From NCBI GenBank assembly GCA_030427445.1, contig JAUIBQ010000008.1, positions 1-46,884 on the forward strand: 46,884 nucleotides of DNA, in the 5' to 3' direction. Position numbers and translations under genes: made by a program. This DNA comes from a bacterium (GTDB taxonomy: Bacteria; Patescibacteriota; Saccharimonadia; Saccharimonadales; SZUA-47). The number at the start of each line of letters is the position of its first letter. Positions within the stretch are counted from its first letter, which is position 1. This document shows positions 1,520 through 39,763 of the stretch, piece by piece. Below the pieces are notes generated by a model. The model was not told where the DNA came from, made no database searches, and saw only the letters and a list, made by a program, of their open reading frames with translations.

Positions 1520-1548
1520 TTGAAATTGCTTGTGTTTTGTGATATAAT
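1520..1548 (+). promoter_or_regulatory. sigma70-like promoter of tmRNA transcript
   Basis: TTGAAA (1520-1525), 17-nt spacer, TATAAT (1543-1548). Confidence 0.7.
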
Positions 1549-1620: not shown

Positions 1621-1739
1621 AAAAATCACGAGGGGATTCGTGATTTTTGAAGGAGGCAACTTGGCGAAAGTGCCTGAAGTGTCCGAGGAAACTTGTTTTC
1701 GTCGGCAGTTCTGGCACAAGCGCCATTACGTGCCGACGC
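1621..1739 (+). ncRNA. structured leader RNA copy B, immediately upstream of tmRNA
   Basis: Perfect hairpin AAAAATCACG-AGGGGATT-CGTGATTTTT, followed by core GGAGGCAACTTGGCGAAAGTGCCTGAAG, a CUUG-capped hairpin, and stem CGTCGGCA/TGCCGACG. Second covarying copy at 21107-21222. Confidence 0.75.
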
Positions 1740-2302
1740 GGGGCTGAATTTCAAGCTCGACATTGGACTTTGACAAGTTAGAGTAATTCCTGCAACTCAA
1801 TATGTAAGATTTTGGGTACTACTCGGTGACAAGAATCTGCTTATTATTTTCGTGATGCATATCCAAAGATATGATGAGCGAAAAAATAATCAGAGAATTG
1901 TTGCTGATAGTAGTCACAAATTGCATATTGGGTTGCGGGGGTTACGTTGTGGCAAGCCGGATCCTGCACGTTAGCCGGGAAGAATTTTAGATGCAGAATC
2001 TAAACTAGCGACAATGATTGACAACGCTTTTAGCGCTCGTCAGTCAGAGTTCGCGCTAGCAGCCTAATTAGTTAGACTGCGATCCGCTCTTTGACTCAGA
2101 TAGAAGTCAGCGGGTCTTATATTATCTGATGCACTATCTACCGACATCTTAAGAAGATAGTCAAGTTTGCAAGGTTGCAGAGTAGCAGTATTTTGTCTGT
2201 TTAGACCTGTTGCTCTAAAGAAATTTCTAAATAGACTAAGCTTGTAGTCACCTAACAACTCAACCGATGGACACGGGGGGCAGTACCCCGTCAGCTCCAC
2301 CA
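1740..2302 (+). ncRNA. ssrA: tmRNA
   Basis: 5' GGGGCUGA...UCGAC pairs with 3' UCAGCUCC-ACCA; conserved AGACUAAGC-UUGUAGU motif near the 3' end; H2-like CAUUGG/CCGAUG; PK1-like CCGG..CCGG with CUGCA/UGCAG just upstream of the tag; tag frame ends ALAA-stop. Confidence 0.9.
2008..2067 (+). other. tmRNA tag reading frame (ATMIDNAFSARQSEFALAA-stop)
   Basis: GCG resume codon 11 nt after PK1 (CTA GCG ACA...), ending GCG CTA GCA GCC TAA (ALAA stop), as in other tmRNA tags. Confidence 0.75.
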
Positions 2303-21061: not shown

Positions 21062-21090
21062 TTGAAGTTTTTCTTCACCTCTGTTAAAAT
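21062..21090 (+). promoter_or_regulatory. promoter of leader RNA/tRNA-Glu
   Basis: TTGAAG (21062-21067), 17-nt spacer, TAAAAT (21085-21090). Confidence 0.65.
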
Positions 21091-21106: not shown

Positions 21107-21222
21107 CATTTTCGCGAGAGGATTCGTGAAAATGAGAGGAGGCGACCTGGTGAAAGTGCCTGAAGCGACGAGGAACTTGTTTCGTCGGCGGTTCTGGCGC
21201 AAGCACCATTACGCGCCGACGA
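21107..21222 (+). ncRNA. structured leader RNA copy A, immediately upstream of tRNA-Glu
   Basis: Hairpin CATTTTCGCG-AGAGGATT-CGTGAAAATG, core GGAGGCGACCTGGTGAAAGTGCCTGAAG, CUUG-capped hairpin, stem CGTCGGCG/CGCCGACG; covaries with copy at 1621-1739. Confidence 0.75.
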
Positions 21223-21297
21223 GGTCCCATCGTCTAACGGCTAGGACACCAGGTTTTCATCCTGGCAATAGGGGTTCGATTCCCCTTGGGATCACCA
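21223..21297 (+). tRNA. tRNA-Glu (UUC)
   Basis: GGTCCCA...CCAGG-TTTTCAT-CCTGG...GGGGTTCGATTCCCC...TGGGATC-A-CCA. Confidence 0.95.
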
Positions 21298-36349: not shown

Positions 36350-36426
36350 GCACCCGTAGCTCAGTGGATTAGAGCACTGGTCTTCGGAACCAGGTGTCGT
36401 AGGTTCGAATCCTACCGGGTGTACCA
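36350..36426 (+). tRNA. tRNA-Arg (UCG)
   Basis: GCACCCG...CTGGT-CTTCGGA-ACCAG...TAGGTTCGAATCCTA-CGGGTGT-A-CCA. Confidence 0.95.
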
Positions 36427-36553: not shown

Positions 36554-36572
36554 ATCCTACCGTGTGTACCAA
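36554..36572 (+). repeat. distal copy of tRNA-Arg 3' end
   Basis: ATCCTACCGTGTGTACCAA versus tRNA ATCCTACCGGGTGTACCAA (1 mismatch in 19). Confidence 0.85.
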
Positions 36573-39616: not shown

Positions 39617-39741
39617 CATGGCTTGGTTCTGGTGGGCTCGAGACAGAGACACCCATGAAGTGTCGACGGGGGAGAAAGTCCAGTGGACTTTCGAGGAGCA
39701 CTTTCTCTTGGCGACTTGTCGACCAAAGACGAAAGTGTGCA

Positions 39742-39763
39742 TCGAGCCCCTCCTGACCCTCCA
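39742..39763 (+). repeat. distal copy of tRNA-Lys 3' end
   Basis: TCGAGCCCCTCCTGACCCTCCA versus tRNA TCGAGCCCCTCCTGGCCCTCCA (1 mismatch in 22). Confidence 0.9.

Follow-up and report, generated by a model that had tools for sequence, protein, structure and literature searches.

The tmRNA gene of this genome is preceded, base to base, by a folded leader RNA of about 117 nucleotides, an RNA of the Saccharibacteria that is previously undescribed. A search of the published literature did not find a description of the element, and a search of Rfam 15 with both leaders of the window (the whole stretch of DNA analysed here, 46,884 nucleotides) gave no family at gathering score and nothing credible at E<=5, bearing out the preliminary description, which had recognised no Rfam family. 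The reading we favour, with about even confidence, is that the leader is a mobile RNA element specific for tRNA boundaries, co-transcribed, removed by RNase P and probably near-neutral for the host. The computational support covers its structure, its boundary, selection on the transcribed strand, a distribution that is independent of the tRNA and a restriction to tRNA ends. The two leaders and their surroundings are as follows.

1533..1548, + strand: probable promoter -10 region (TATAAT), 5' of the tmRNA leader (sequence)
1621..1739, + strand: leader element under study, 5' of the tmRNA (model score 118.4 bits; sequence; folding)
1621..1648, + strand: P1 hairpin, stem 1621-1630/1639-1648, loop AGGGGATT (sequence; covarying pairs)
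1649..1654, + strand: junction GAAGGA, family consensus GAGAGGAG (alignment)
1655..1734, + strand: P2, a single long irregular hairpin (MFE; covariation)
1735..1739, + strand: single-stranded linker GACGC, -5 to -1 of the tmRNA, consensus GACGN (junction base counts)
1740..2302, + strand: tmRNA, with an extension of ~150 nt at about 1785-1925 (end pairing, tag)
21107..21222, + strand: second leader element, adjoining tRNA-Glu(TTC) (model score 129.5 bits)
21223..21297, + strand: tRNA-Glu(TTC)

The last base of the tmRNA leader is 1739 and nucleotide 1 of the tmRNA is 1740; in the sister copy, the last base is 21222 and tRNA-Glu starts at 21223. Each leader thus stops one base before a tmRNA or tRNA-Glu, at the mature 5' end where the preliminary description had placed it, and the sequence, coordinates, 10-bp P1 and near-constant loop that it gave were all found as reported. 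The tmRNA goes undetected by ARAGORN, and Rfam sets its 5' end wrongly at 1930. The call is nonetheless sound because the ends pair, GGGGCTG at 1740 being complementary to the CAGCTCC that precedes the CCA ending at 2302, and because the tag is readable (ATMIDNAFSARQSEFALAA*). The 5' domain of this tmRNA contains an extra hairpin domain of about 150 nt (window ~1785-1925), which is missing in relatives and is probably the reason why ARAGORN overlooks the gene.

From 5' to 3', the family fold consists of P1 (about 10 bp, loop AGRGGATT), the GAGAGGAG junction, P2, which is one long hairpin with the cap AAACTTGTTT, and the single-stranded GACGN. In the tmRNA copy, P2 comprises an outer helix (GGCA(A)C 1655-1660/GTGCC 1730-1734), a second helix (TGGCG 1662-1666/CGCCA 1721-1725) and a third (GTGCC 1670-1674/GGCAC 1713-1717), with the apical part AAACTTGTTTT. 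Folding of both leaders beats 200 shuffles (z -6.7 and -4.8), and the P1 pairs covary, with 97% of P1 alignment cells paired. Under a hand structure, the genome's own six aligned copies have 93% of cells paired and 16 pairs that vary on both sides, while among 104 distinct sequences 31 of 32 pairs do so. In this larger alignment, which was fitted to the model and is thus biased towards it, as the six-copy alignment is not, 90.3% of cells are paired and the covariation score is 0.63; shuffling lowers these values to 64.5% and 0.20, and sliding to no more than 47% and 0.09. With covariation exceeding these controls, the leader is a structured RNA family, and the covariation first claimed from two copies is real in both alignments. 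The pseudoknot or kissing interaction proposed with it is rejected: the helix then called P4 is whole in only three of the six own copies (2/6 pairs in Lys, 4/6 in Ser and 4/7 in Tyr), and TGGCG does pair with CGCCA, but in the MFE structure as an ordinary nested helix within the one long hairpin. Variant forms exist, in which P1 has a AAACCAAG..CTGTTT motif instead or P2 is very short or missing; the leader of tRNA-Ser(CGA) in genome G053 is made of P1 and GACGA alone. Two other pairings were considered and rejected, one between the P1 loop and the tRNA T-loop (GGAUUC/GAAUCC), because the loop is constant whatever the tRNA, and one between the alternative P1 motif AACCAAG and CUUGGUU in P2, for which the AAACCAGGC variants are partnerless.

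The two copies originally reported turn out to be too few, since DNA, motif and model searches find eight in the 966-kb assembly and about 100 exist in relatives. The own copies precede the tmRNA, tRNA-Glu(TTC), Met, Lys(TTT), Tyr, Glu(CTC), His and Ser(GGA); that of His is separated from its tRNA by ~95 additional nt, that of Ser(GGA) stands 5' of a degenerate tRNA-Ser 5' copy, and that of Tyr occupies the entire gap from the CCA of tRNA-Thr to the first base of tRNA-Tyr. Most other tRNAs of the genome have ordinary promoter-proximal leaders. A covariance model built without any tRNA sequence supplied the homologues beyond the original pair, matching 30 of the 61 genomes sampled from the order, with up to 11 copies per genome. 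Of 294 genomes drawn from across the phylum and searched with reduced sensitivity, only members of the same order matched. When 85,488 species were scanned for the exact pattern, 60 matches came up; 11 of them reach a clear model score (>=35 bits), and those of the 11 that bear a taxon name are Saccharibacteria. At least 20 tRNA isotypes are preceded by leaders. The association with tRNA and tmRNA 5' ends extends to the family, as 75 of 104 copies end within 3 nt of such an end, the chance of a boundary match being estimated at ~1e-4 per hit if 40 tRNAs per Mb are assumed. For the tRNA-His of two genomes (G012 and G019), the boundary lies before G-1, which is thereby counted with the tRNA.

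Hairpins with the AGRGGATT loop and a stem of 8 bp or more, of which the collected loci hold 55 distinct examples (scrambled loops give none), occur in only two arrangements, in sense before a tRNA, a tmRNA or a truncated tRNA 5' copy, and inverted after a 3' CCA; as these loci had been selected through their tRNA or with the model, the evidence for absence elsewhere comes chiefly from a whole-genome motif search. Inverted copies follow the genome's own tRNA-Leu(TAA), a tRNA-Cys, a tRNA-Pro and the tmRNA of G003 and G006, and others with variant loops follow the tmRNA of G001 and G009. Whatever the orientation, the GACGN end, which is the element's 3' end, always faces the tRNA. Against the favoured reading, inverted copies are not removable by RNase P as 5' leaders, and those at the tmRNA of G003 and G006 have their more stable fold on the tmRNA strand and are terminator-like. 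With the model, a few further inverted copies were detected directly after a promoter-like box (loci L128, L159 and L164), and at L128 and L159 a sense leader and a tRNA come next.

Upstream of the leaders, -10-like sites are found within 90 nt in 54 of 76 cases, versus a background of 21%. A promoter-proximal box, CCYCTGTT, which is boxA-like and conserved upstream of many tRNA genes, accompanies 40 of 104 leaders (background 1.8%), for example at window 21076-21084. Among sense leaders, the transcribed strand is more stable than its complement in 70 of 78 (p 1e-12) and selection therefore acts on the leader RNA, or on the transcribed DNA strand.

Bacterial RNase P touches leader bases from -1 to about -4/-5 and favours single-stranded leaders (PMC9433436), with leader sequence preferences that vary among species (PMC4919922). 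The linker of the element resembles such leaders in being single-stranded from -5 to -1 and in its sequence preferences, namely G at -5 (72%), A at -4 (78%), C at -3 (78%), G at -2 (75%) and A, C or T at -1, where G makes up just 3%. Leaderless tRNAs of the same genomes also have Y at -3 and R at -2 and avoid G at -1. Unlike ordinary tRNA 5' leaders, which are variable and lack a conserved folded module, the element is such a module. The genome encodes both RNase P RNA (RF00010, 217.6 bits) and the RNase P protein RnpA (PF00825, 1.2e-15), which rejects the idea that the organism lacks RNase P and uses the leader as a substitute. Judged from the boundary, we infer that removal of the leader is ordinary RNase P processing. 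A copy lies between the promoter and the mature tRNA or tmRNA 5' end, with its own 3' end at nucleotide 1, and would form the 5' portion of the precursor transcript, in which it would fold on its own into P1 and P2. Only the GACGN beside the tRNA would stay single-stranded, so that the leader need not disturb tRNA folding. Cleavage by RNase P at the boundary would then leave a normal tRNA or tmRNA and release the leader as a separate RNA of ~120 nt, whose 3' end is fixed by the cut. This enzyme would be to the leader what splicing is to an intron, making the insertion nearly harmless.

That the element moves by insertion, in a largely selfish or host-neutral role, is suggested by its distribution. 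The nearest leader in another genome belongs to the same tRNA in 6 of 89 labelled copies, versus a permutation mean of 4.4, and the nearest leader overall is in the same genome in 18 of 89, versus 3.9 expected. On these sequence relationships, leader distribution does not follow the descent of the host tRNA genes. Within the family, the tmRNA orthologues have leaders from different lineages, that of G003 being leaderless, and among congeners the promoter is kept while the leader is gained, lost or replaced. No clean pair of empty and filled sites with identical flanks was found at the orthologous loci compared; at these loci the promoter is conserved and the whole leader differs, and replacement by recombination is therefore also possible. 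Also against the favoured reading, there are no very recent copies, the closest leader pairs being ~10% diverged, and neither a transposase nor a reverse transcriptase tracks the element. Among the options listed in the preliminary description, a mobile RNA element targeting tRNA-like 5' ends gains support, because leader kinship ignores tRNA identity and because inverted copies occur at tRNA 3' ends.

A cis-acting regulatory or processing leader, which would control the transcription or maturation of chosen tRNAs and of the tmRNA (for instance through a ligand or protein bound by P1/P2, with recombination swapping leaders since any one works), is an unlikely alternative, although it would account for several of these observations: sense leaders stand between promoter and tRNA, constraint at the RNA level is strong, as strand folding and covariation show, the loop AGRGGATT and the junction GAGAGGAG are conserved, and leaders are found disproportionately often at the tRNAs for Met, Glu, Lys, Gln and Arg. 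However, close relatives differ in which tRNAs carry leaders, no alternative terminator/anti-terminator fold was seen, well-conserved leaders also stand before truncated, non-functional tRNA 5' copies, and inverted copies occur.

Those same leaders retained before broken tRNA copies would be expected of a trans-acting small RNA, for which the RNA released by RNase P would be the product and the tRNA would merely give a promoter and 3'-end processing. RNase P would create a defined 3' end, there are up to 11 paralogues in one genome and the single-stranded motifs are conserved. Still, we find this decidedly unlikely, given that no variable guide-like segment exists outside the co-varying helices, that two congeners (G025 and G053) carry as few as 1 and as many as 10 copies and that no copy was detected in about half of the sampled genomes. 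A precedent is provided by Nanoarchaeum equitans, with its dicistronic tRNA-sRNA precursors and C/D sRNAs described as mobile (PMC3491384). In those precursors, as in plant tRNA-snoRNA genes, a structured small RNA with many paralogues is joined to a mature tRNA end, which the leader also adjoins directly in the 75 copies mentioned above, and the RNAs are freed by tRNA processing, as proposed here for the leader. The Nanoarchaeum RNA, however, follows its tRNA and owes its 5' end to RNase Z, whereas the leader lies 5' and a cut by RNase P is proposed; the former are C/D guides, whereas C/D boxes or guides were not seen in the leader.

Highly unlikely, in our view, is a small palindromic DNA element (REP/BIME or MITE-like) aimed at tRNA gene ends, with an incidental RNA fold. 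P1 is palindromic, inverted copies exist, and in 43 of 104 copies (7% background) P1 is preceded within 30 nt, mostly at 8-10 nt, by a GTAGCT-like box. Like Rickettsia palindromic elements and REP/BIME, the leader is short, non-coding, hairpin-forming and dispersed; those elements, in contrast, are not confined to mature tRNA ends and lack a conserved two-hairpin RNA fold ending at an RNase P site. The folding bias of the transcribed strand, the covariation of P2 and a boundary that tracks mature RNA ends (G-1 of tRNA-His, the CCA end) also argue against it, as does the Y1 transposase, which does not track the element and is absent from two carriers (G000 and G053). With the exact P1-loop motif confined to tRNA/tmRNA loci as well, both in the whole-genome motif search and in the collected loci, a REP/RAYT element is rejected. 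So is a retroelement, since reverse transcriptase does not track the element either and is absent from most carriers, including G000, G006 and G030. Finally, a self-cleaving ribozyme setting the tRNA 5' end, to which the position of all conserved sequence immediately 5' of the junction might point, is scarcely credible: self-cleavage, suggested in the preliminary description, is unneeded because RNase P RNA and RnpA are present and the junction has an RNase P-type single-stranded leader, known self-cleaving ribozymes would leave a 5'-OH at the 5' ends, P2 is dispensable (the P1 and GACGA leader of G053), and no Rfam ribozyme matches.

A second covarying RNA, which we call type II, is found in the same genomes; it is 88 nt long, 23 of its 33 pairs covary, and it too has no Rfam family at gathering score. 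Its layout is GTGAG-H1-CGCAAGG-H2-CGGGGTC-H3-GTGAC, and it sits within partial tRNA copies beside intact tRNAs, mostly of the same isotype; copies upstream of the intact tRNA are 5' pieces and hold it in the D-arm, whereas those downstream are 3' pieces and hold it in the T-loop. Type II occurs at about 33 places in the collected loci (for example L096 1641-1729 and L044 1353-1440). Two related features lie in the window.

36558..36571, + strand: displaced 3' end of tRNA-Arg(TCG), whose gene is at 36350-36426, with 1 mismatch
39670..39742, + strand: diverged type II copy 3' of tRNA-Lys(CTT); a displaced 3' end of tRNA-Lys comes next, at 39750-39763

Among 241 distinct tRNAs in the collected loci, 59 have their own displaced 3' end downstream and 26 have their own 5' end copied upstream, against ~0.4 expected by chance (an estimate), a few of these cases being neighbouring tRNAs with similar ends. 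The displaced 3' ends lie mostly 100-190 nt downstream, often with an expanded T-loop. Two arrays (L106 at the tRNA-Gln and L155 at the tRNA-Ser of G043) have tandem tRNA 5' pieces before the intact tRNA, with promoter-like sequence after each piece, and at the tRNA-Phe of G003 (L150, about 2560-2800) a direct duplication of ~50 bp, spanning the promoter and tRNA nt 1-25, flanks a type II insertion. The displaced ends look like a pervasive invasion of tRNA genes, which points to tRNA genes here being a general niche for structured insertions; together with type II, they support reading the leader as one such insertion. In the model drawn from Caldiarchaeum, plasmids and viruses integrate at tRNA genes and leave tRNA fragments (PMC3293823). 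Type II insertions share with it the tRNA targets and a restored tRNA beside a displaced piece, whereas the leader itself comes without tRNA duplication and without integrase. As a tentative proposal, possible rather than probable, Saccharibacteria may host a class of RNA-encoded mobile elements at tRNA/tmRNA boundaries and loops, removed via RNase P, with the leader, type II and other loop insertions as members; in a genome of ~1 Mb, they would together have reshaped a large share of the tRNA genes, perhaps half.

Even on a conservative reading, the leader represents a new covarying RNA family fused to the tmRNA and to at least 20 tRNA isotypes. If the favoured reading is true, a selfish or hitch-hiking RNA would rely on RNase P in these reduced-genome bacteria as introns rely on splicing, and mobile RNA could use tRNA 5' leaders as a niche. 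This would help to account for the trouble that a tRNA/tmRNA finder has here, and would provide a big natural set of leader-tRNA fusions for tests of RNase P specificity.
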